DNA of 39,087 nucleotides from Bacteroidales bacterium (GTDB lineage: Bacteria; Bacteroidota; Bacteroidia; Bacteroidales; UBA932), in the NCBI GenBank assembly GCA_024689985.1, contig JAILCZ010000056.1, positions 1-39,087 of the forward strand. Direction: 5' to 3'. Position numbers and translations under genes: made by a program. Positions 12,973 through 39,083 of the stretch are shown here, piece by piece. Position 1 is the stretch's first letter, and the number at the start of each line of letters is the position of its first letter. The notes beneath the pieces are model-generated. The model ran no database searches and was not told where the DNA came from. It was given only the letters and a program-made list of their open reading frames with translations.

Positions 12973-13830
12973 TTAGAGAACAAGTTTTTCAACGCTCGTA
13001 ACGAGAATTCCGGTTGCACCTGCTTCCTTGAGGGCTTCGATCTTTTCCCAGAGGACATCTTCAGCCACCACTGTGTGGAGGGAAGACCAGCCTGTCTCCG
13101 CAAGAGGAAGGATGGTAGGGGATTTCATTGCCGGAACAATCTTGAGGGCATCGTCAATCTTGCCGTTAGGAATGTTCATCATAAGGTATTTCAAACCCTT
13201 GCTGTCGCTCACTGCGTTGAATCTGAAAATGAGCTTCTCGAGAATCGCTTTCTTCTCTTCGCTGAGGTTCTTGTTCGTGATGAGGACGGCTTCGCTGAAA
13301 ACGATTTTCTCAACTTCCTTGAGGCCGTTGCTTACGAGAGTTCCGCCTGAAGAGACGATGTCGAAGATTGCATCAGCCATTCCTGCCGCAGGGGCGATTT
13401 CCACTGAGCCTGCAATAGTGTGGATCTGTGCGTCGATATTGTTGTCCTTGAGCCATTTGCTGAGGATCCCGGGATATGAGGTGGCAATTCTCTTGCCGTT
13501 GAAATACTCAGGTCCGTCGTACTGCTCGTCCTTTGGAATTGCGAGTGAAATGCGGCAGGCTCCGAATCCGAGCTTGCTTGCAATTTCTACGTCGAATCCT
13601 CTTTCGAGGACTTCGTTGTATCCTACGATTCCAGCATCAGCAGCTCCCATTGAAACTGCCTGCGGGATATCGTCATCCCTGAGGTAGAGAAGTTCTACAG
13701 GGAAGGTCTTGGATGCTGAAAGGAATTTTCTCTTGCTGTCGTCCACGCTCACTCCCGCATCCTGCAGGAGGGCAACGCTCTGTTCGTTCAGACGTCCTTT
13801 GGTCTGGATAGCGATTCTTAACATTGACAT
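12973..13830 (-). CDS. hisG: ATP phosphoribosyltransferase, long form with C-terminal ACT-like domain
   Basis: MLRIAIQTKGRLNEQSVALLQDAGV...GAADAGIVGYNEVLERGFDVE...; alternative in-frame ATG at 13824. Confidence 0.96.
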   Translation of the reverse strand: MSMLRIAIQTKGRLNEQSVALLQDAGVSVDDSKRKFLSASKTFPVELLYLRDDDIPQAVSMGAADAGIVGYNEVLERGFDVEIASKLGFGACRISLAIPKDEQYDGPEYFNGKRIATSYPGILSKWLKDNNIDAQIHTIAGSVEIAPAAGMADAIFDIVSSGGTLVSNGLKEVEKIVFSEAVLITNKNLSEEKKAILEKLIFRFNAVSDSKGLKYLMMNIPNGKIDDALKIVPAMKSPTILPLAETGWSSLHTVVAEDVLWEKIEALKEAGATGILVTSVEKLVL

Positions 13831-13857: not shown

Positions 13858-13890
13858 AAAAAAAGGACTTGCCCGGTTCAGGGTAAGTCC
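13858..13890 (-). terminator. his operon attenuator terminator
   Basis: Minus strand GGACTTACCCTGAACCGGGCAAGTCCTTTTTTT: GGACTT/AAGTCC and CCC/GGG stem with an A.C mismatch, U7 tract, about 28 nt before hisG. Confidence 0.92.
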
Positions 13891-13939
13891 TCATATATCT
13901 ACATATTCGCATTTAGCAGTATACAGCAACTTACCCCCG

Positions 13940-13990
13940 TTATTTGCGGTGGTGGTGATGATGAGCTGTATGAAGCGAATAAAATTTCAT
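13940..13990 (-). CDS. hisL: his leader peptide MKFYSLHTAHHHHHRK
   Basis: Minus strand ATG AAA TTT TAT TCG CTT CAT ACA GCT CAT CAT CAC CAC CAC CGC AAA TAA: six His codons, five consecutive, directly upstream of the attenuator. hisL is used as a functional name. Confidence 0.9.
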   Translation of the reverse strand: MKFYSLHTAHHHHHRK

Positions 13991-13998
13991 ATCGGTTG

Positions 13999-14030
13999 CA
14001 AATATAAATATTTATAATTCTGTTTCCAAA
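13999..14030 (-). promoter_or_regulatory. Bacteroidota sigma-type promoter of the his operon
   Basis: Minus strand TTTG (+14027-14030), N20, TATATTTG (+13999-14006). Confidence 0.8.
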
Positions 14031-25148: not shown

Positions 25149-25180
25149 CAAAATGACGCGATTATTTATTTATTTGGGGA

Positions 25181-25213
25181 GCCAGCACTGAAATATGTGC
25201 TGGCTATTTTTTA
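25181..25213 (+). terminator. Intrinsic terminator of an orphan transcript
   Basis: GCCAGCAC-TGAAATAT-GTGCTGGC-TATTTTTTA: perfect 8-bp stem plus U tract. Confidence 0.9.
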
Positions 25214-25404
25214 ATCCAACGTTCAAATATAGTAATTTTATTTTTATAGGTTTTTCAACTGATCTTCATTTTTGTTGACTCTCCGTTTTCCCTTCGAATC
25301 ATATTATAATAATAAGATAAGGCAGAATAATATTCTCATTCCTAATCTACCTAAAGAAGAAAAACCTAAAGTGCAAGAATTTTTAAATATTTTTATGAAT
25401 ATTC

Positions 25405-25435
25405 TTTGCGGAGTAAATTTCATTTCCTATTTTTG
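25405..25435 (+). promoter_or_regulatory. Bacteroidota promoter of the ilv-leu operon leader
   Basis: TTTG (25405-25408), N19, TATTTTTG (25428-25435). Confidence 0.8.
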
Positions 25436-25472
25436 TGATGCGCTCAATACAGAGCGCTATAATTTTGCAATT

Positions 25473-25535
25473 ATGATTTTAAGTTTATCTATTATCGTCG
25501 TGATTATTCTACCAGTGCTTGTGGTGAAACCATAA
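25473..25535 (+). CDS. ilvL: ilv leader peptide MILSLSIIVVIILPVLVVKP
   Basis: ATG ATT TTA AGT TTA TCT ATT ATC GTC GTG ATT ATT CTA CCA GTG CTT GTG GTG AAA CCA TAA: 14 of 20 residues are Ile, Leu or Val. ilvL is used as a functional name. Confidence 0.88.
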   Translation: MILSLSIIVVIILPVLVVKP

Positions 25536-25576
25536 ACTCTGGGAAGTCGCGCGTAATATAGATTTAAGGATATTAG

Positions 25577-25611
25577 CGAGCCCTTCTCAGAATATGAGAG
25601 GGGCTCGTTTT
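25577..25611 (+). terminator. ilv attenuator terminator
   Basis: CGAGCCCTTCTCA-GAATA-TGAGAGGGGCTCG-TTTT: 13-bp stem with one U-G pair, about 32 nt before ilvD. Confidence 0.92.
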
Positions 25612-25643
25612 GCAAGAAGACATTAAAGGATACTATAATTTTT

Positions 25644-27479
25644 ATGAAACATCAATTTCGCAGTGCAGTTACTCAGGAGGGACGCCGAATGGCCGGTGCC
25701 CGTGCACTCTGGGTTGCAAACGGTATGAAGAGGGAGCAGATGGGCAAACCGGTAATCGCCATCGCCAATTCCTTCACTCAGTTCGTTCCGGGTCATACGC
25801 ATCTCCACGATGCGGGACAGATCGTAAAGGCTGAGATAGAGAAGCTCGGCTGTTTCGCGGCTGAATTCAATACCATAGCGGTTGATGACGGTATCGCAAT
25901 GGGCCACGATGGAATGCTGTATTCGCTGCCTTCGCGTGACATAATCGCAGACAGCGTAGAGTATATGTGCAATGCACATAAGGCCGATGCGCTGGTTTGC
26001 ATAAGCAATTGTGACAAAATTACGCCGGGTATGTTGATTGCCGCAATGAGGCTTAACATCCCGACGATTTTTGTAAGTGGCGGTCCTATGGAGGCCGGAG
26101 TCCTCGGCAAGGCCAAACTCGACCTGATCGATGCTATGATCAAGTCAGCGGACCCTACTATGAGCGATGAGGATGTGGCTGAAATCGAAAACCACGCCTG
26201 CCCGACCTGCGGCAGCTGCTCTGGTATGTTCACTGCCAATTCTATGAACTGCCTTACGGAGGCTATCGGACTTTCTCTTCCGGGAAACGGAACCATCCTC
26301 GCGACCCACAGGAACAGAATAGAACTTCTCTTCAAGAAGGCTGCCCGCCTTATCGTTGAGAATGCCTATAAATATTATAGGGATGGTGACGAAAGCGTTC
26401 TTCCAAGAAGCATCGCTACCCGTCAGGCCTTCCTGAATGCAATGACTCTCGATATCGCAATGGGCGGATCCACAAATACCGTCCTCCATCTTCTCGCCGT
26501 CGCCAATGAGGCTCAGGCTGATTTCAAGATGCAGGATATCGATATGCTTTCGAGAAAGGTTCCTTGCATCTGCAAGGTCGCTCCTAATACTGCAAAATAC
26601 CATATCCAGGATGTGAACCGTGCAGGTGGCATCGTCGGCATTATGAATGAGCTCGCCAAGGGCGGTCTCGTGGATACTTCCCTCAAGAGAGTGGACGGTA
26701 TGACGCTTGCCGAGGAAATAGAGAAGTACAATCTTCTCGGAAATCCTACGGATGAGGCCAGGAAGGTTTATTCCAGCGCTCCTGGAAACAGATATAACAT
26801 TGTCCTCGGCAGCCAGGAAAATTATTATGACGAGTTTGACCTTGACAGGGAGAACGGATGCATCAGGGATCTTCAGCACGCCTATACCAAGGACGGCGGT
26901 CTCGGCGTCCTCTTCGGAAACATCGCTCAGGACGGCTGCGTTATCAAGACTGCCGGCGTGGATGAGTCCATCTGGCATTTCGAGGGAACTGCGAAGGTGT
27001 TCGATTCCCAAGAGGCTGCCTGCGACGGCATCCTCGGCGGAAAGGTCAAGAGCGGTGACGTCGTCGTCATCCTCTATGAAGGTCCTAAGGGTGGCCCTGG
27101 TATGCAGGAAATGCTTTATCCTACATCTTATATAAAGAGTATGCATCTTGGCAAGGAATGTGCTTTGATTACCGACGGCCGTTTCAGCGGTGGCACATCG
27201 GGTCTGAGCATCGGTCATATTTCTCCTGAAGCTGCCGCCGGCGGAAATGTCGGCCTGCTCCGTGACGGAGATGTCATTGAAATCGACATTCCTTCAAGAA
27301 AGATAAATGTACGCCTTTCGGATGAAGAGCTCGCTCAGCGTAGAAAGGAAGAGGAGGCAAGAGGCAAGAAGGCCTTCACCCCTCCGTTCAGACAGAGAAC
27401 AGTCAGCAAGGCCCTCAAGGCTTATGCCGCTATGGTCAGCTCAGCTGACAAGGGTGCAGTCAGAATCATTGAAGATTAA
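25644..27479 (+). CDS. ilvD: Dihydroxy-acid dehydratase
   Basis: [78 protein letters not shown]. Confidence 0.97.
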
Positions 27480-27486
27480 TTATAAA

Positions 27487-29199
27487 ATGGAAGCAGAAAA
27501 GTTCAGAGGATCGGAGATATTCCTCAAGTCTCTCCTGGCTGAGGGCGTTGATACGCTCTTCGGTTATCCGGGAGGCCAGAATGTCGCTATCTACGACAAG
27601 ATCTACGATTATAAGGACAGGATCCGTCATATCCTTGTCCGTCACGAGCAGGGTGCGGTTCACGCCGCACAGGGTTATGCCCGAGTCAAGGGCAAGGCCG
27701 GCGTCGTGCTGGTGACTTCAGGCCCGGGTGCCACGAATGTCATCACAGGTATCGCCGATGCAATGATTGATTCCACTCCTCTCGTGGTCATCGCAGGTCA
27801 GGTCGGTACTGCTCTGCTTGGTACCGATGCCTTCCAGGAGACTGACGTGCTCGGTATGACGATTCCTATCACGAAGTGGAGCTATCAGATCCGTCGTCCT
27901 GAGGATGTGGCCTGGGCTGTTGCCCGTGCTTTCTACATCGCTCAGAGCGGTCGTCCGGGCCCTGTCGTCCTCGACTTCACCCGTGACGCCCAGGTAGGCG
28001 AGGCTGAATTCGAATTCAAGAAGTGCGATTTCATCAGAAGCTATGTTCCTGTTCCGGAACCTTCTAAGGATGCAATTGCAGAGGCTGCAAAGATGATTGA
28101 TGCAGCGAAGAAGCCTTTCGTTGTCTTCGGCCAGGGTATAGTCCAGTCAGGTGCCGAGAAGGCTCTCGCTGATTTCATCGGCAAGGCCGGCATTCCTGCC
28201 GCATCGACTCTGCTTGGTCTGAGCGCCCTCCGTTCCGACAATCCTCACTACAAAGGAATGGTCGGTATGCACGGAAACATCGCAGCCAACATAATGACTC
28301 AGGAATGTGACCTGCTCATCGCAGTGGGTATGCGTTTCGATGACCGTGTGACCGGTACGACTTCCACTTATGCGAAGCAGGCCAAAAAGATCCACATCGA
28401 CATCGATGCTTCAGAGATCGGCAAGAACATCCCTGTTGACCTCGGCATCCTCGGAGACGCAAGGACTGTTCTTGAGAAACTTACTTCGCTCGTGAAGGCT
28501 TCTGACCACTCTGAGTGGGAAAAGACGGCCGACAAGTGCTACGAGGTGGAGAATTCCAAGGTCATCAATCCCGAAATCCATCCTGGCAAGGGATATATCA
28601 ATATGGGCGAAGTCGTGGATACTGTCGCTACCGTCTCAAAGGGTGACGTCGTTGTCATCACTGACGTAGGACAGAACCAGATGCACGCAGCCCGCTATTC
28701 CAAGTTCGTCAAGACCCGCAGCATGGTTACTTCCGGCGGTCTCGGAACTATGGGATTCGGTCTTCCTGCCGCAATCGGTGCGAAGATTGCCGATCCTTCC
28801 CGTCAGGTTGTCCTCTTCCTCGGAGACGGCGGTCTCCAGATGACAATCGAGGAACTCGGTACTATTATGCAGGAGGGTACGGGCGTGAAGATCGTCCTTC
28901 TGAACAACAACTGGCTCGGCAACGTGCGTATGTGGCAGCAGCTCTTCTGGGATGAGCGTTATTCATATACAAGGATGACGAATCCTGACTACGGCAAGAT
29001 TTCTTCGGCATACGGAATCAAGAACCGTCTGGTCGAGAAGAGGGAAGACCTCGAGGATGCTGTCAGGGAGATGCTCAGCGACGATGCTCCTTTCCTTCTT
29101 GAGGTAAGGGTTGTTGAGGAGGGAATGGTATTCCCTATGGTTCCTCCGGGAAAGAGCGTGAACGAAATTATGCTTACTGAGAAAGAATGGTACAAATAA
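27487..29199 (+). CDS. ilvB: Acetolactate synthase large subunit
   Basis: MEAEKFRGSEIFLKSLLAEGVDTLFGYPGGQ, RHEQGAVHAAQGYARVKGKAGV, GDGGLQMTIEELGTIMQ. Start corrected from 27307. Confidence 0.97.
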   Translation: MEAEKFRGSEIFLKSLLAEGVDTLFGYPGGQNVAIYDKIYDYKDRIRHILVRHEQGAVHAAQGYARVKGKAGVVLVTSGPGATNVITGIADAMIDSTPLVVIAGQVGTALLGTDAFQETDVLGMTIPITKWSYQIRRPEDVAWAVARAFYIAQSGRPGPVVLDFTRDAQVGEAEFEFKKCDFIRSYVPVPEPSKDAIAEAAKMIDAAKKPFVVFGQGIVQSGAEKALADFIGKAGIPAASTLLGLSALRSDNPHYKGMVGMHGNIAANIMTQECDLLIAVGMRFDDRVTGTTSTYAKQAKKIHIDIDASEIGKNIPVDLGILGDARTVLEKLTSLVKASDHSEWEKTADKCYEVENSKVINPEIHPGKGYINMGEVVDTVATVSKGDVVVITDVGQNQMHAARYSKFVKTRSMVTSGGLGTMGFGLPAAIGAKIADPSRQVVLFLGDGGLQMTIEELGTIMQEGTGVKIVLLNNNWLGNVRMWQQLFWDERYSYTRMTNPDYGKISSAYGIKNRLVEKREDLEDAVREMLSDDAPFLLEVRVVEEGMVFPMVPPGKSVNEIMLTEKEWYK

Positions 29200-29774
29200 T
29201 GGATAAAGCGATGGAAAACGAAAACACACTCTATACTGTAACTGTATATACAGAAAACCAGGTCGGTCTCCTGAGTGCCATATCCAGCATTTTCACCAGA
29301 CGAAGCCTCAATATCTGGTCTCTGACCGTCAGCGCTTCATCCATCAAGGATGTGCACAAGTTTACGATCACGACCCATACGACAAGCGAGAAGATCGCGG
29401 CCGTGGTGAAGCAGCTCGAAAAGAGAGTTGACGTTATCAAGGCCTTCTTCTATACGAATGACGATATCGTCTACAGGGAAGTGGCCCTCTACAAGGTAGA
29501 GACCTGCAACCTGCTTGAGAGCAATGCGCTTGAGGATCTTCTCCTCAAGTTCAATGCGAGAATCCTCGAGATGAACAAGGTCTTCACGGTCCTCCAGAAA
29601 ACTGGACATTGCGAAGATACCGTAGCCCTCTACGAGGCTCTCAAAAAACTGGGACCTGTCCTCCAGTTCACCCGCTCCGGCCGTGTGGCCGTTACCAAGG
29701 GCGACCACGAGCTTGTGGACGAGTTCCTCGCAGAACGCGAAATTGAAAGAAAGAAAATTGAAATGAATAAATAA
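29199..29774 (+). CDS. ilvN: Acetolactate synthase small subunit
   Basis: ACT domain YTVTVYTENQVGLLSAISSIFTRRSLNIWSLTVSAS. Start overlaps the ilvB stop (TAATG). Confidence 0.93.
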   Translation: MDKAMENENTLYTVTVYTENQVGLLSAISSIFTRRSLNIWSLTVSASSIKDVHKFTITTHTTSEKIAAVVKQLEKRVDVIKAFFYTNDDIVYREVALYKVETCNLLESNALEDLLLKFNARILEMNKVFTVLQKTGHCEDTVALYEALKKLGPVLQFTRSGRVAVTKGDHELVDEFLAEREIERKKIEMNK

Positions 29775-29793
29775 TTTTTATCCAAAAAGTATT

Positions 29794-30843
29794 ATGGCAA
29801 AAATGAACTTTGGCGGTGTAATTGAAAATGTAATCACCCGCGATGAATTCACTCTCGAGAAGGCTCGTGAGATTCTCAAGAACGAAACAATTGCTGTCCT
29901 CGGTTATGGCGTACAGGGCCCTGGTCAGTCACAGAACCTGCGTGACAATGGCTTCAACGTTATCGTCGGCCAGCGTCCAGGCAAGACTTACGAGAAGGCT
30001 GTCGCTGACGGCTGGGTTCCTGGCAAGACTCTCTTCTCTATTGAAGAGGCTGCTGAAAAGGGTACCATCGTAATGTGCCTTCTTTCTGATGCTGCAGTTA
30101 TGTCAGTATGGCCTACTCTCAAGCCACACCTCACTGCAGGCAAGGCTCTCTACTTCAGCCACGGTTTCGCAATTACCTGGAGCGACCGTACAGGATGCGT
30201 TCCTCCAAAGGACATCGACGTCATTATGGTAGCTCCTAAGGGTTCAGGTACTTCACTCCGTACTATGTTCCTCGAGGGCCGCGGACTCAACTCTTCTTAC
30301 GCAGTTTACCAGGATGTTACCGGAAAGGCTGCTGACCGTACTCTTGCCCTCGGTATCGGTATCGGTTCAGGTTACCTCTTTGAGACTACATTCCAGCGTG
30401 AGGCTACTTCAGACCTTACAGGTGAGCGCGGATCTCTTATGGGAGCCATCCAGGGTCTTCTCCAGGCTCAGTACGAGGTTCTTCGTGAGCACGGTCACTC
30501 TCCAAGCGAGGCTTTCAACGAGACAGTCGAAGAGCTTACTCAGTCTCTTATGCCTCTCTTCGCTGAGAAGGGTATGGACTGGATGTATGCAAACTGCTCT
30601 ACGACGGCTCAGCGTGGTGCCCTCGATTGGTACCCTCGCTTCCACGATGCTGTAAAGCCTGTTCTCGAGTGGCTCTACCTCTCAGTCAAGACAGGTAACG
30701 AGGCTCAGATCTCTATCGACAGCAACTCTAAGCCTGACTACCGCGAGAAGCTCAACAAGGAGCTCGAGGTTCTTCACAACAGCGAGATGTGGCGTGCAGC
30801 CGAGACTGTCCGTCAGCTCCGTCCTGAGAACGAGAAGAAGTAA
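29794..30843 (+). CDS. ilvC: Ketol-acid reductoisomerase
   Basis: IAVLGYGVQGPGQSQNLRDNGFNVIVGQRPG, LYFSHGFAITW, VDVIMVAPKGSGTSLR-type block, SDLTGERGSLMGA. Confidence 0.97.
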   Translation: MAKMNFGGVIENVITRDEFTLEKAREILKNETIAVLGYGVQGPGQSQNLRDNGFNVIVGQRPGKTYEKAVADGWVPGKTLFSIEEAAEKGTIVMCLLSDAAVMSVWPTLKPHLTAGKALYFSHGFAITWSDRTGCVPPKDIDVIMVAPKGSGTSLRTMFLEGRGLNSSYAVYQDVTGKAADRTLALGIGIGSGYLFETTFQREATSDLTGERGSLMGAIQGLLQAQYEVLREHGHSPSEAFNETVEELTQSLMPLFAEKGMDWMYANCSTTAQRGALDWYPRFHDAVKPVLEWLYLSVKTGNEAQISIDSNSKPDYREKLNKELEVLHNSEMWRAAETVRQLRPENEKK

Positions 30844-30940: not shown

Positions 30941-32440
30941 ATGGACAAGAACAGAGTTTATATTTTTGATACGACGCTCCGCGATGGAGAACAGGTGCCC
31001 GGATGCCAGTTGAATACGGTTGAAAAGATTCAGGTAGCGAAGGCCCTAGAGGGACTAGGTGTCGATGTCATCGAGGCCGGTTTTCCCGTTTCCTCTCCTG
31101 GAGATTTCAATTCCGTGATAGAAATTTCCAAGGCTGTGACCTGGCCTACTATCTGTGCGCTCACACGTGCGGTTGAGAAGGACATTGACGCGGCTGCGGA
31201 TGCTTTGAAGTATGCAAAGCACAAGAGAATCCATACCGGTATCGGTACTTCGGAGTCTCATATCCGTTATAAATTCAACTCTACTCCTGAAGAGATTCTT
31301 GAGCGCGCCGTCAAGGCCGTGAAGTATGCCAAGAAGTATGTCGAGGACGTGGAGTTCTATGCTGAGGATGCAGGACGTACCGACAATGAGTACCTTGCGA
31401 GAGTGGTCGAGGCCGTGATCGCTGCAGGTGCCACCGTCGTCAACATCCCTGATACCACCGGATACTGTCTGCCGTCAGAGTACGGAGCGAAGATCAAGTA
31501 TCTTATGGATCACGTCCAGAACATCGACAAGGCGACTATTTCAACGCACTGTCACAATGACCTCGGAATGGCTACCGCCAACACTATGGCCGGTATCCTC
31601 AATGGAGCCCGCCAGGTTGAGGTTACGATCAACGGCATCGGAGAGCGTGCCGGAAATACGTCTCTCGAAGAAGTGGCTATGATTCTCAAATGCCACAAGG
31701 GCATCGGCATCGACACGAACATCAATACGCAGAAGATCTATCCGATCAGCCGTATGGTATCCAACCTTATGAATATGCCTGTTCAGCCGAACAAGGCCAT
31801 CGTCGGTAAGAATGCCTTCGCCCACTCATCCGGAATTCATCAGGACGGTGTCCTCAAGAATGTCCAGACCTATGAGATCATCGATCCGCACGACGTGGGT
31901 GTCGATGACAACAGCATCGTGCTTACCGCAAGAAGCGGTCACGCTGCCGTCAAGTATCGTCTCGAATGTCTCGGCGTAAAGGTCGAGGGTGAGAAACTTG
32001 ACAAAATTTACAAGGATTTCCTCGTGCTTGCCGACAAGAAGAAGCAGGTCAATGACGACGACCTTCTCGTGCTTGCAGGTGCTGAGCGCACCGAGGCTCA
32101 CAACATCAAGCTTGACTATCTCCAGGTTACCACCGGTAAGGGTCTCAAGCCTGTTGCCAGCATCGGTCTCGACATCTCTGGTGAGAAGTTCCAGGCTGCA
32201 GATACCGGTAACGGTCCTGTGGATGCCGCAATCAATGCCCTCAAGCAGATTATCCGCCGCAAGATGACCATCAAGGAGTTCACGATCCAGAACATCAATT
32301 CAGGATCGGACGATATGGCCAAGGTGCATATGCAGGTGGAGTTCAACAAGCACGTTTATTATGGCTTCGGCGCAAATACCGACATCGTGACTGCGTCGGT
32401 CGAGGCCTATATCGATTGTATAAATAAATTTACAAAATAA
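30941..32440 (+). CDS. leuA: 2-isopropylmalate synthase
   Basis: [81 protein letters not shown]-terminal regulatory domain. Confidence 0.96.
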
Positions 32441-32444
32441 AAGG

Positions 32445-33815
32445 ATGAACACTTTATTCGACAAGATCTGGGACAGCCACGTTGTCTCACTTATCGAGGA
32501 CGGCCCTACACAGCTGTATATCGACAGGCTCTATTGCCACGAGGTAACGAGCCCTCAGGCCTTCGACGGCCTTCGCGAAAGAGGCATCAAATGTCTCCGT
32601 CCGGAGAAGATTTTCTGTATGCCGGACCACAATACTCCGACCCACGACCAGGACAAGCCTATCGAGGATCCTGTTTCAAGAAAGCAGGTCGATACTCTTG
32701 CCAGGAACGCTGCTGAGTTCGGTCTCAATCATTTCGGAATGAATTCCATCAAGAACGGTATCATTCACGTCGTTGGACCGGAGAGAGGCCTCTCCCTTCC
32801 TGGAATGACTATCGTCTGCGGTGATTCACATACATCTACCCACGGCGCTATGGGTGCCGTTGCCTTCGGTATCGGTACTTCCGAGGTGGAGATGGTGATG
32901 GCCAGCCAGTGCATCCTTCAGCAGAAGCCTAAGTCTATGCGCATCCGCGTCGAGGGTCAGCTCGCAAAGGGCGTAACCGCAAAGGACATCGCCCTCTACC
33001 TTATGATGAAGCTCACGACTTCCGGTGCGACCGGATACTTCGTCGAATACGCTGGTTCTGCCGTCAAGTCCCTCACTATGGAAGGACGCCTCACTCTCTG
33101 CAACCTTTCCATCGAGATGGGTGCAAGAGGCGGTTTCATCGCTCCTGACGAGATTACCTTCGAGTACATCAAGGGCCGCGAGTACGCTCCTAAGGGTGAA
33201 GACTGGGACAAGGCTGTCGCTTATTGGAAGACTCTCAAGAGCGGTGACGATGCTGTCTTTGACAAGGAGCTCGTTTATGACGCAGCTGACATCCAGCCGA
33301 TGATCACCTACGGTACGAACCCTGGTATGGGTATGCCGGTCACTGGCTCCATCCCAGCTGATGCTGCTAAGAAGTCCCTTGATTATATGGGCCTCGAGGC
33401 AGGGGAGTCTCTCCTCGGCAAGAAGATCGACTATGTTTTCCTCGGAGCCTGCACCAACGGACGTATCGAGGATTTCAGGGCTTTCGCTTCTATCGTCAAG
33501 GGCAAGAAGAAGGCCGACAATGTCACTGCCTGGCTCGTGCCTGGTTCCTGGATGGTCCTCGACCAGATCAAGAAGGAGGGTCTCGACGTCATCCTCAATG
33601 AAGCCGGTTTCGCTATCCGTCAGCCTGGCTGCTCTGCCTGCCTCGCTATGAATGACGACAAGATTCCTGCAGGCAAGTATGCGGTTTCTACCAGCAACCG
33701 TAATTTCGAAGGCCGTCAGGGTCCTGGATCCCGCACCTTCCTCGCCAGCCCTCTCACTGCCGCAGCCGCTGCAGTCACCGGTGTCGTTACCGATCCAAGA
33801 ACTTTAATCCAGTAG
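32445..33815 (+). CDS. leuC: 3-isopropylmalate dehydratase large subunit
   Basis: [67 protein letters not shown]. Confidence 0.97.
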
Positions 33816-33819
33816 AGAA

Positions 33820-34431
33820 ATGAAAGCTAAATTCGATATAATCACCAGTACCTGCGTTCCGCTTCCTCTTGAGAATGTGGATACGGACCAGATCATTCCT
33901 GCCCGCTTCCTCAAGGCTACTACGAGGGAGGAGAAGTTCTTCGGCGACAATCTTTTCAGAGACTGGCGCTATGATTCTCAGGACAAGCCTAAGGAGAATT
34001 TCGTGTTCAACCAGCCTGCTTTCAGCGCCGCTCCTTCAGAGGGTGTCCACCAGATCCTGGTTGCTGGCAAGAACTTCGGTTCCGGCTCCAGCCGTGAGCA
34101 CGCTGCCTGGGCTATCGCCGGCTATGGTTTCAGGGTTGTCATCTCTAGTTTCTTCGCTGACATCCACAAGAACAACGAGCTCAATAATTTCGTGCTTCCT
34201 GTAGTGGTTTCCGAGGATTTCCTTGCTGAGCTTTTCGAGAGCATCAAGAAGGATCCTCAGATGAAGGTGAAGGTGGATGTGCCTAACCAGGTAGTCACCA
34301 ATCTTGCGACAGGCAGGAGCGAGAATTTTGAAATCAACGGTTATAAGAAGTATTGTCTTATGAATGCCCTCGACGACATCGACTATCTTCTCCAGCAGAA
34401 GAGCAAGATCGAGGCATATGAGAATAAATAA
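33820..34431 (+). CDS. leuD: 3-isopropylmalate dehydratase small subunit
   Basis: [48 protein letters not shown]. Confidence 0.97.
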
Positions 34432-34439
34432 GTAGTATA

Positions 34440-35969
34440 ATGGCTGCCAGACTTGAAATAATGGATACGACTCTCCGAGACGGAGAGCAGACCGCGGGTG
34501 TGTCTTTCAATGACGAAGAGAAGGTTGCGATAGCAAAACTCCTCATTGAGGAACTCAAGGTCAACCGAATTGAGGTCGTATCTGCCAGGGTATCATCGGG
34601 AGAACACAGGGCATTCGAACAGATTTGCTCCTGGGCTGCCAAGGAAGGTTGTCTCGACAAGGTCGAGGCTCTCGGTTTCGTTGACAACGGCATCTCCATC
34701 AACTGGATTTCAGAATCTGGCGGAAAGGTGCTGAACCTTCTTGCAAAGGGTTCCCTGAACCACGTCACGAAGCAGCTCGGCAAGACTCCTGAGGAGCACT
34801 GGGCTGATATCCGCTCCAATGTGGATATGGCCGTGGCAAAGGGTATGAGCGTCAACCTCTATCTTGAGGACTGGAGCAACGGTATGCTGAATTCTCCGGA
34901 TTATGTCTTCAATATGATTGACGCCCTGAAGGATACTCCTATCAAGAGGTTTATGCTTCCGGATACCCTCGGAGTCCTGAATCCTGAGCAGACTTATGCG
35001 TTCTGCAAGAGGATGGTCGAGACTTATCCTGACCTTCATTTTGATTTCCACGGCCACAATGACTATGACCTCGCCGTCGCGAATACGATGGCTGCGGTCC
35101 GTGCCGGAATCAAGGGCGTCCACGTGACGGTGAACGGTCTCGGTGAGCGTACCGGCAATACTCCTGTTGCCAGTCTCGTAGGTGTGCTCAACGACCATCT
35201 CCACGTGGAGAATACGATCGACGAGCGCCGTCTTACCCACGTCTGCCAGTATGTCGCCAGCATCTCCGGCATCCGTATTCCAGCCAACCGTCCTATCGTC
35301 GGAGAGGCCGTGTTCACGCAGAGCGCGGGCATTCACGCCGATGGTGACAACAAGGGGCATCTCTACGAGAATTCCCTTCTTCCGGAGCGTTTCGGCAGGG
35401 TCCGCAAGTATGCCCTCGGCAAGACTTCCGGCAAGGCTAATATCAAGAAGAATCTCGACGAACTCGGCATTACCCTTACTCCTGAGCAGATCAAGCTCGT
35501 TACGAAGAGGGTTGTCGAACTCGGCGACAAGAAGGAGGATGTGACGACGGAGGATCTTCCGTTCATCATCTCCGATGTCCTGAAAGGGGAGTTCTCCGCC
35601 CAGAAGGACAATATCAAGATTGTCAATTACAGTCTTCAGCTCACCAGGAGTATGAGGCCTGTGGCTACGATCAGAATCAGCATCGACGGTAAGGAGTACG
35701 AGGAGGTCGCTTCCGGTGCCGGTCAGTATGACGCCTTTATGAAAGCTCTCTGGAAGGTTTACGACAAGCTCGGAAAGATGCACCCGAGGCTTACGGATTA
35801 TGCCGTCAGCATCCCTCCGGGAGGCAAGACGGACGCCCTCGTGCAGACCGTTATCACCTGGGACAACGGCGGCAGCGAACTCAAGACCAGGGGTCTCGAT
35901 GCAGACCAGACTGAGGCTGCCATCAAGGCTACGGTGAAGATGTTGAACATTATTGAAAATTATAAATAA
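34440..35969 (+). CDS. Second LeuA-family enzyme (alpha-isopropylmalate/citramalate synthase family; possibly CimA-like)
   Basis: [82 protein letters not shown]-terminal regulatory domain. Distinct from leuA at 30941. Confidence 0.88.
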
Positions 35970-35980
35970 AGTTACCTTAT

Positions 35981-37039
35981 ATGAAACTCAAAATCGCAAA
36001 GCTTCCTGGTGACGGTATCGGACCGGAAGTAGTTGAACAGGCTGTCAAGGCTGTTGATGCCGTGGCAAAGAAATTCGGTCACGAAGTAGAATATTCGTTC
36101 GGTCTCGTTGGCGCCTGTGCCATTGACAAGACTGGTTCTGCCTTCCCAGAGGAGACTTTCCAGACCTGTCTCAACGCCGACGCTGTCCTTTTCGGCGCAG
36201 TCGGTGATCCACGTTTCGACAATGATCCTACGGCCAAGGTCCGTCCTGAGCAGGGCCTTCTCGCTATGAGAAAGCAGCTCGGTCTCTTCGCCAATCTCCG
36301 TCCTGTGGAGACTTTCAAGAGCCTCATCCACAAGAGCCCTCTGAAGGAGGAGCTCGTTGACGGCGCTGATTTCCTCTGCGTCCGTGAGCTTACCGGCGGT
36401 ATGTATTTCGGTGAGAAGGGCCGCAAGGACAATGGTGACACCGCTTATGATACCAATCTCTACCATCGTTTCGAGGTTGAGCGTATCCTCAAGCAGGCTT
36501 ATCAGTATGCTATGCAGCGCCGCAAGCATCTTACCGTGGTTGACAAGGCCAACGTCCTCGAGTCAAGCCGTCTCTGGAGACAGATCGCCCAGGAAATGGC
36601 TCCTCAGTATCCTGAGGTCACCACTGACTTTATGTATGTGGACAATGCTGCGATGAAGCTCATCACCGGCCCTAAGTTCTTCGATGTCCTCGTGACTGAG
36701 AATACTTTCGGTGACATCCTTACTGACGAGGCCAGCTGCGTTTCCGGCTCAATGGGCCTCCTTGCTTCCGCTTCTATCGGTGAGCACACTGGCGTCTTCG
36801 AGCCTATCCACGGTTCTTATCCTCAGGCTGCCGGCAAGAATATCGCCAACCCTCTCGCTACCATCCTTTCTGCCGCAATGATGTTTGAGTATGCATTCGG
36901 TCTTATGGAAGAGGGCAAGGCTATCCGCAAGGCGGTTGCCAAGAGCATCGACGAGGGTATCGTCACCGAGGACCTCGCCGGCTCAGGCAAGGCTTACTCT
37001 ACTTCTGAGGTAGGTGACTGGGTTGCAGCCAATATTTAA
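35981..37039 (+). CDS. leuB: 3-isopropylmalate dehydrogenase
   Basis: [82 protein letters not shown]. Confidence 0.97.
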
Positions 37040-37043
37040 TCGG

Positions 37044-37079
37044 GCAATCAGTACTTAATAATTGAGCAATCGGTATTTA
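37044..37079 (+). repeat. Imperfect tandem repeat GCAATCaGTAcTTA / GCAATCgGTAtTTA (22-nt period)
   Basis: Two copies at 37044-37057 and 37066-37079 in the leuB-ilvE gap. Confidence 0.6.
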
Positions 37080-37103
37080 GTAAACGTATAAAGACCTTAT
37101 TTT

Positions 37104-38147
37104 ATGGCAACAGAATTAGACTGGTCCAGTCTCGGATTCCATTTCAGACAGACCAACAAGATTGTAGTAAGTTATTACAAGGATGGTCAGTGGTCGGCTC
37201 CTGTAGCTACTGAGGATTTCTCAGTCGCTCTCAACTGCTTCGCCAACACCTTCCATTACGGCAGTTCCTGCTTCGAGGGTCTCAAGGCCTTCAGAGGTCA
37301 GGACGGCAAGGTCCGCATCTTCCGTCCGGAAGAGAATGCCAAGCGTCTTCAGTCAAGCGCTGAACGTCTCGGTCTCGGCGTCGTACCGGAGCAGATGTTC
37401 ATCGATATGTGCGTGACTGCGGTCCGTGAGAACCTGGAGTTCCTTCCTCCTTACGGCTACAATGCGTCTATGTACATCAGACCTGTCCTCATCGGTACCA
37501 CTCCTGGAATCGGTGTCTGCTCTTCGGAGGAGGCCGTGTTCATCGTGATGGTATCTCCTGTCGGCACTTACTCCGGAAAGAAGAGCCTTACTCCTCTTAC
37601 TGCCACTGTCGCCAGAAATTACGACCGTGCCGCTCCTAACGGTACCGGCCGTTTCAAGGTCTCTGCCAATTACGCCATCTCCCTCTACCCATACAATATG
37701 GCTCACAAGCAGGGTTACGGCGAATTGATCTTCCTTGATCCTGCCACTCACAAGAATATCGATGAGTTCGGTTCTTCCAACTTCCTCGCTATCCAGGGCA
37801 ACAAGTATATCACACCGCTCTCAGACAGCATTCTCCCTTCAATCACCAACAAGACTCTCCAGCAGGTTGCACAGGACTTTGGTCTTACCGTTGAGAAGAG
37901 GGTGATTCCTCTCGAGGAGGTTGCAGAGTTCGATGAGATCAATGCCTGCGGTACGGCTGTCGTCATCACTCCTATCAAGTCAATTGATGACAAGGCCCGT
38001 CTTGAGGATACTACCGTTGTCAAGACATATCATATGCCTTCAGGCGAAGAGGTCGGCAAGACCAGCAAGAAACTCTACGACCGCATCCGTGGAATTCAGG
38101 ACGGCCGTGAAGAGGATACCCACAACTGGTGTCTTTTCGTTGACTAA
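37104..38147 (+). CDS. ilvE: Branched-chain amino acid aminotransferase
   Basis: FANTFHYGSSCFEGLKAFRGQDGKVRIFRPEENAKRL, PVGTYSGKK, EFGSSNFLAI, ACGTAVVITPI. Confidence 0.95.
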   Translation: MATELDWSSLGFHFRQTNKIVVSYYKDGQWSAPVATEDFSVALNCFANTFHYGSSCFEGLKAFRGQDGKVRIFRPEENAKRLQSSAERLGLGVVPEQMFIDMCVTAVRENLEFLPPYGYNASMYIRPVLIGTTPGIGVCSSEEAVFIVMVSPVGTYSGKKSLTPLTATVARNYDRAAPNGTGRFKVSANYAISLYPYNMAHKQGYGELIFLDPATHKNIDEFGSSNFLAIQGNKYITPLSDSILPSITNKTLQQVAQDFGLTVEKRVIPLEEVAEFDEINACGTAVVITPIKSIDDKARLEDTTVVKTYHMPSGEEVGKTSKKLYDRIRGIQDGREEDTHNWCLFVD

Positions 38148-38162
38148 TTAAACAGTACTTAA

Positions 38163-39083
38163 ATGCCAGTCAAAATACCAGACAGATTACCGGCGATTGA
38201 GCTGCTCAAGAAGGAGAATATCTTCGTGATGGACGATACCAGGGCTGCATCCCAGCAGATTCGTCCTCTGAAGATTGTCGTCCTCAATCTTATGCCGCTC
38301 AAGATCACCACTGAGACAGATCTCATCAGGCTCCTTTCCAATACCCCTCTTCAGCTTGACATCACTTTTATGAAGCTGAAGAGCCATACTCCGAAGAATA
38401 CTCCCGTCGAGCATATGCGAATGTTCTATCACGACTTCGAGAAGCTCAGGAACCAGAAATTCGACGGTATGATAATCACAGGAGCGCCTATTGAGATGAT
38501 TGACTTTGAGGAGGTGACCTACTGGCCGGAGATCCGTGATATTTTCGACTGGTCCAGGACGCACGTCTTCAGCACGATGTTCATCTGCTGGGCCGCGCAG
38601 GCTGGTCTCTATCATTTCTACGGCATTCCGAAGATTCTTCTTCCTATGAAGCGTTTCGGCGTGTATCCGCAGAATATCGTCACTCCTGAGCCTATCCCTC
38701 TTTTCAGGGGCTTTGATGATTATTTCAATATGCCTCAGAGCCGTCATACCCAGGTTGACGATGATGCCATTCGCAAGAACGCCAATCTCCAGATTCTTGC
38801 TGAGTCTCCGCTCAGCGGCACAGGTATCGTGATGGCACGAGGCGGTAGGGAAATCTTCATTACCGGCCATCTGGAGTATTCTCCTTATACTCTTGATGCA
38901 GAGTATCGAAGGGACAAGGATGTCAGACCTGACGTAGGTTTCCCTGAAAACTACTATGTGGACAATGATATGGACAAGGGCGTAAAGGTCACCTGGAGGG
39001 CCGCTGCAAATCTTTTCTACAGCAACTGGCTCAACTACTATGTTTACCAGGAGACTCCTTACAACATTGATGATATCAAATAA
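38163..39083 (+). CDS. metA: Homoserine O-acyltransferase, MetA family
   Basis: MPVKIPDRLPAIELLKKENIFVMDDTRAASQQIRPLKIVVLNLMPLKITTETDLIRLLSNTPLQLDITFMK, GAPIEMIDFEEVTYWPEI, STMFICWAAQAGLYHFYGIPK. Confidence 0.96.
   Translation: MPVKIPDRLPAIELLKKENIFVMDDTRAASQQIRPLKIVVLNLMPLKITTETDLIRLLSNTPLQLDITFMKLKSHTPKNTPVEHMRMFYHDFEKLRNQKFDGMIITGAPIEMIDFEEVTYWPEIRDIFDWSRTHVFSTMFICWAAQAGLYHFYGIPKILLPMKRFGVYPQNIVTPEPIPLFRGFDDYFNMPQSRHTQVDDDAIRKNANLQILAESPLSGTGIVMARGGREIFITGHLEYSPYTLDAEYRRDKDVRPDVGFPENYYVDNDMDKGVKVTWRAAANLFYSNWLNYYVYQETPYNIDDIK

Follow-up and report, generated by a model that had tools for sequence, protein, structure and literature searches.

Leader-peptide attenuation is a textbook mechanism, and the enterobacterial ilvGMEDA, ilvBN and leuABCD operons all have leader-peptide attenuators. 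These combine a short ORF rich in Ile, Val and Leu (or in Leu) codons, mutually exclusive antiterminator and terminator folds and a segment 1:2 pairing, and their leader codons mirror the content of the operon. A uORF 5' of an ilv operon is also known from Corynebacterium (ilvB-II), where one report describes it as conserved and as regulating expression of the operon (PMC10272879); it stands before ilv genes as does the leader described here, but in Actinobacteria, and the likeness is one of layout rather than of demonstrated sequence relation. In the same phylum but another order (Flavobacteriales), strong clues of leader peptide attenuation at amino acid biosynthesis operons were reported for Flavobacterium psychrophilum, with conserved 5' elements named at pheA and hisG; the main text of that report does not contain the term "ilv", and its accessible part does not describe codon logic or covariation (PMC9723704). 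Short ORFs reminiscent of leader peptides occur in 5' UTRs of B. thetaiotaomicron (PMC7366714), and the Bacteroid-trp RNA motif (RF01692) is a candidate cis-regulatory RNA of Bacteroidetes (PMC2864571). Our search of the open-access literature, which did not extend to a comparative study that PMC4833913 cites (Lopatovskaya et al. 2010), returned no ilv or leu attenuator from Bacteroidales.

We analysed a 39,087-nt stretch of DNA (the window) from a Bacteroidales bacterium, in which a long run of branched-chain amino acid genes is preceded by a compact leader. We hold with high confidence, on sequence and modelling grounds, that this leader is a ribosome-dependent classical attenuator sensing charged tRNA-Ile, tRNA-Leu and tRNA-Val. 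Its support comes from sequence anatomy, conservation, covariation, conservation of the promoter, the match between codons and operon content, and a folding model. The features are as follows.

25405 to 25435, plus strand: putative Bacteroidota-type promoter, TTTG (-33), 19-nt spacer, TATTTTTG (-7); from sequence
25440 to 25457, plus strand: 6-bp GC hairpin, GCGCUC-AAUACA-GAGCGC; from folding, -11.0 kcal/mol
25473 to 25535, plus strand: candidate leader ORF, MILSLSIIVVIILPVLVVKP; from sequence, with counterparts at related ilvD loci
25478 to 25569, plus strand: segment 1:2 pairing, in which leader codons bind the post-stop segment; from the minimum-free-energy fold
25538 to 25550, plus strand: antiterminator left arm (segment 2), UCUGGGAAGUCGC; from covariation with the terminator left arm at 37 loci
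25576 to 25591, plus strand: switch strand (segment 3) common to antiterminator and terminator; from pairing and the folding model
25577 to 25611, plus strand: predicted intrinsic terminator with 13-bp stem, 5-nt loop and UUUU; from sequence and fold energy
25644 to 27479, plus strand: ilvD, dihydroxy-acid dehydratase, first structural gene; NCBIfam equivalog above cut-off
27307 to 30843, plus strand: ilvB, ilvN and ilvC; from NCBIfam
30941 to 39083, plus strand: leuA, leuC, leuD, a citramalate-synthase-like gene, leuB, ilvE and metA

The start of ilvB probably lies near 27480. The genes from leuA to metA are closely spaced and share one strand. The citramalate-synthase-like gene (34440-35969) scores 651.8 bits against a curated cut-off of 950, and is therefore named by resemblance.

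Direct reading of the sequence places the TTTG of the promoter at 25405-25408 and, after a 19-nt spacer, TATTTTTG at 25428-25435, in agreement with the first-pass annotation. A second TAnnTTTG-like box, TAATTTTG (25460-25467), lies only 5 nt 5' of the leader ATG, which makes the start site of the leader transcript uncertain. The GC hairpin at 25440-25457 sits near the expected 5' end of the transcript and is perhaps a stabiliser or an operator; inspection of relatives by eye showed no counterpart. A further terminator-like hairpin with a T run (25180-25205) stands alone in the intergenic region that separates the ilv promoter from a divergent AraC-family gene; no recognised gene ends at it.

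The leader ORF runs for 20 codons from the ATG at 25473 to the TAA at 25533-25535 and encodes five Ile, four Leu and five Val, so that the 14 branched-chain residues claimed for it are borne out almost letter for letter, as is its concealment within a TTG-started 87-aa ORF (25272-25535). The antiterminator left arm begins at the third base past the leader stop, and nine base pairs can form between UCUGGGAAG (25538-25546) and CUUCUCAGA (25583-25591), inside the terminator arm; the extension suggested earlier, UCGC (25547-25550) with GCGA (25576-25579), can be read from the sequence as well. The 13-bp terminator stem (25577-25589 with 25595-25607, one G-U pair, 5-nt loop) also lies before ilvD as proposed, although its U tract amounts to four U only (25608-25611); its energy is -24.1 kcal/mol over 31 nt and -26.8 kcal/mol over 35 nt. 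One point of the first-pass annotation fails: segment 1:2 pairing, called only weakly visible there, is extensive between leader codons and the post-stop segment, the fold of 25473-25575 reaching -28.8 kcal/mol. According to the model, this pairing would sequester the antiterminator arm when the leader carries no ribosome. The leader RNA as a whole (25440-25620) folds with z = -8.4. The window thus contains an ORF rich in product codons, an intrinsic terminator, an exclusive and covarying antiterminator and a 1:2 pairing. By its predicted mechanism this is classical leader-peptide attenuation, in a Bacteroidales ilv/leu case that has no Rfam family. It differs from the enterobacterial leaders in phylum, in promoter type (TTTG at -33, TAnnTTTG at -7) and in that a single leader serves a fused ilv-leu-cimA-metA gene run.

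Loci encoding relatives of ilvD were taken from GTDB genomes. An ATG-started ORF rich in Ile, Leu and Val, followed by a terminator, was present upstream of ilvD at 51 of the first 110 loci, or at 37 after similar ones were removed; the automatic terminator detection behind these counts missed the terminator of the window because of the short U tract, and was relaxed afterwards. Across the 37 loci, each antiterminator arm paired with its own partner at -14.4 kcal/mol, compared to -11.1 kcal/mol with permuted partners, and none of 20,000 permutations was as strong. This swap test is conservative, since the arms of L063, L069 and L079 lie outside the stretch used. The letters of the arms vary by lineage while the pairing is kept: GGGAAG with CUUCCC in L002, GGAAGGGCU with AGCCCUUCC in L041, and UCUGGGAUG with CAUCUCAGA in L035. 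As the first-pass annotation would lead one to expect, therefore, the mini-ORF is conserved in Bacteroidales and the antiterminator/terminator pairing is both conserved and covarying. In 45 ilvD leaders, Ile, Leu and Val make up a share of 0.57 when the ORF is read in frame, but 0.24 and 0.09 when it is read in the remaining two frames. Of 73 related leaders, 63 carry a TAnnTTTG box within 90 nt 5' of the leader ATG, at a median distance of 26 nt, where shuffles would give 5.5.

Not every ilvD is preceded by such a leader. That all members of the family carry one was considered and rejected, as several genera are without it, and none was recognised before ilvD in five close relatives (L008, L009, L010, L016 and L042). 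In the distant family f18, which belongs to the same GTDB phylum, Val/Ile-rich ORFs occur before ilvD (L153, L156, L162, L163, L166 and L169), followed by a conserved CCCAAGTCC plus GGCTTCGGGA or a similar stretch; these may possibly be attenuators of a different build.

The best evidence on which amino acids the leader senses is operon structure. Citramalate synthase together with LeuCDB leads toward isoleucine, whereas a leu operon does not yield valine. We located leuA in the same genomes and compared four operon classes, using leaders that were picked by summed Ile/Leu/Val content and hand-curated, from related and so non-independent species; a leuA gene apart from ilvD is often preceded by a candidate attenuator of its own. 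Leaders of fused ilv-leu-cimA operons, the window included, are balanced, with 51 Ile, 48 Leu and 49 Val codons, while ilvD leaders with leu genes elsewhere favour Ile and Val (139 Ile, 91 Leu, 168 Val). The leuA leaders with a citramalate synthase gene (cimA) nearby hold 69 Ile, 66 Leu and 10 Val, a separate Ile-plus-Leu class by which these Bacteroidales relatives again differ from the enterobacterial leaders, and those without cimA, nearly all from one family (L112 being the exception), hold 14 Ile, 78 Leu and 11 Val. Val is more frequent (p about 5e-8) and Leu less frequent (p 3e-6 and 5e-8) in ilvD-alone leaders than in leuA leaders; Ile is enriched in leuA leaders with cimA over those without (p 5e-6); and Leu is modestly higher in fused than in ilvD-alone leaders (p 0.013). 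The same partition is visible in four split-operon genomes of the window's own genus, with 6-8 Ile, 1-3 Leu and 5-7 Val in the ilvD leaders and 0 Ile, 4-7 Leu and 0-1 Val in the leuA leaders. An exception is L083, where leuA lies elsewhere and yet the ilvD leader is Leu-rich. The codon classes match pathway biochemistry, and the multivalent Ile/Val/Leu control put forward for this locus gains support because leader codon content follows the gene content of the operon. The same putative leader device, with codons fitted to the products of each operon, recurs across Bacteroidales.

In a folding model, a ribosome was placed codon by codon on the window leader and the transcript end was varied. 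With the end at 25600, where the 3' arm of the terminator is partly transcribed, the probability of the antiterminator was 0.98-0.99 for ribosomes at codons 25500-25524, 0.06 for a ribosome at the Lys codon and 0.00 when it stood at the stop codon or was absent; without a ribosome and with the end at 25594 it was 0.02. Among 70 leaders of relatives, the median was 0.98 at regulatory codons as opposed to 0.25 at the stop, and the difference exceeded 0.2 in 62. Without a ribosome, the relatives gave a median of 0.77, and in many of them 1:2 pairing is weaker or absent. Masking of the arm by a stop-codon ribosome and its release by a stalled one are thus seen in the model, though not in all relatives: leaders of the window's own family with another terminator type (L110, L171-L173, L175, L177 and L178) showed no clear switch. 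Once complete, the terminator wins energetically at every ribosome position, and equilibrium folding of the full transcript cannot separate the states; the choice must therefore fall during transcription, by kinetic competition.

We infer leader translation, termination, relief of termination by starvation and transcription-translation coupling, and suggest that the attenuator would set read-through into the ilvDBNC-leuACD-cimA-leuB-ilvE-metA gene run as follows. When all three amino acids are ample, the ribosome would reach the stop codon and hide the adjacent antiterminator arm, so that the terminator folds. When any one of Ile, Leu or Val is short, the ribosome would stall within the codon run, and the freed arm could take segment 3 ahead of terminator closure. 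If the leader is not translated, its codons would pair with segment 2 and termination would prevail.

tRNA-sensing T-boxes, riboswitches and protein-binding leaders also combine a structured 5' leader with a terminator, and any of them could control the operon and leave the ORF incidental. We consider this very improbable, as it predicts neither the ORF, with its frame-specific Ile/Leu/Val bias and operon-matched codons, nor an antiterminator arm inside the footprint of a stop-codon ribosome. Rfam searches point the same way: the window had no match at the gathering score, and when matches with E values up to 10 were admitted, the window leader and the related loci scanned gave no meaningful one, those in the leader being weak and unrelated. 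The T-box model was absent both at the gathering score in the window and among the weak leader matches. Bacteroid-trp (RF01692), which we take to be a trp leader, is likewise from Bacteroidetes, but its covariance model found no match in the window or in the eight related loci scanned. The leader DNA also had no match in a plasmid collection.

We consider it just as improbable that, instead of working by intrinsic termination, the leader ORF acts on translation, by reinitiation at ilvD or translational coupling with it, or by way of Rho acting on an exposed leader. Reinitiation from leader genes near the main start has been put forward for a wide range of phyla, Bacteroidetes among them (PMC4833913). 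Here, however, 108 nt and the predicted intrinsic terminator separate the leader stop from ilvD; the same source sets a minimum distance of about 40 bp for attenuation and a short distance for reinitiation. The covarying terminator/antiterminator alternation also speaks against this reading. Finally, a coincidentally hydrophobic ORF in AT-rich intergenic DNA beside a constitutive terminator is scarcely credible and already contradicted by the comparative data (order-wide conservation, partner-specific pairing, promoter position and operon-matched codons), for although such DNA readily yields Ile, Leu and Val codons (when 25440-25574 was dinucleotide-shuffled 20,000 times, 153 shuffles had an ORF with at least 14 of them), only one shuffle did so once a share of at least 70% was required too.

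Besides the proposed ilvD attenuator, the window holds a second candidate.

13864 to 14006, minus strand: putative His5 operon attenuator before hisG; from sequence, with the same architecture as the ilvD leader

Read along the minus strand, it comprises a box TATATTTG (14006-13999), a leader MKFYSLHTAHHHHHRK (13990-13940), an antiterminator arm GGGGGUAAGU (13938-13929) and then, at 13891-13864, a terminator with a T run behind it; the hisG ATG is at 13830. His and Phe leader ORFs are present in most relatives examined. Elsewhere in the window's own genome, pheA has a Phe/Tyr-rich leader, MTNNRFYVGSYFYFYYLERR (L305), and the pheA leaders of relatives (L288-L304) are Phe/Tyr-rich as well, e.g. 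YFYFFFYFYF. A Thr-rich leader precedes thrA in the same genome. The thrA leader ORFs (L270 from about base 481, L271, L272, L277 and L278) share a conserved ending, T-[TM]-T-L-R-G-stop, whose coding sequence is ACCCTTAGGGGTTA, and most have a conserved TTTCT-CGTGA--CACGC stretch 3' of the ORF; unlike the other leaders, they showed no obvious intrinsic terminator, and no credible Rfam match. A possible trp leader, MSLIWWRWQLPSRVRR, lies upstream of trpE in one relative (L284), and none was seen at most other trpE loci examined.

We lean towards the view that Bacteroidales run most of their amino acid biosynthesis (ilv, leu, his and phe, and thr judging by its codons) through ribosome-stalling attenuators, whose codons are rewritten as operons fuse, split, or gain and lose citramalate synthase. 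Classical attenuation requires a ribosome close behind the RNA polymerase, and its conservation in Bacteroidales would make the transcription-translation coupling of this phylum directly testable. If the broader view is true, coupling would be tight even though ribosomes of this phylum do without Shine-Dalgarno sequences; two reports describe initiation in Bacteroidales as not driven by them (PMC6847099, PMC9976891). The scanned leaders, which lie outside Rfam families, would be natural additions to Rfam. The partition of leader codons by operon content (Ile, Leu and Val; Ile and Val; Ile and Leu; Leu alone) would make the sensed amino acids readable from sequence, and suggests that gut commensals adjust how much branched-chain amino acid they make to the charging of their tRNAs.
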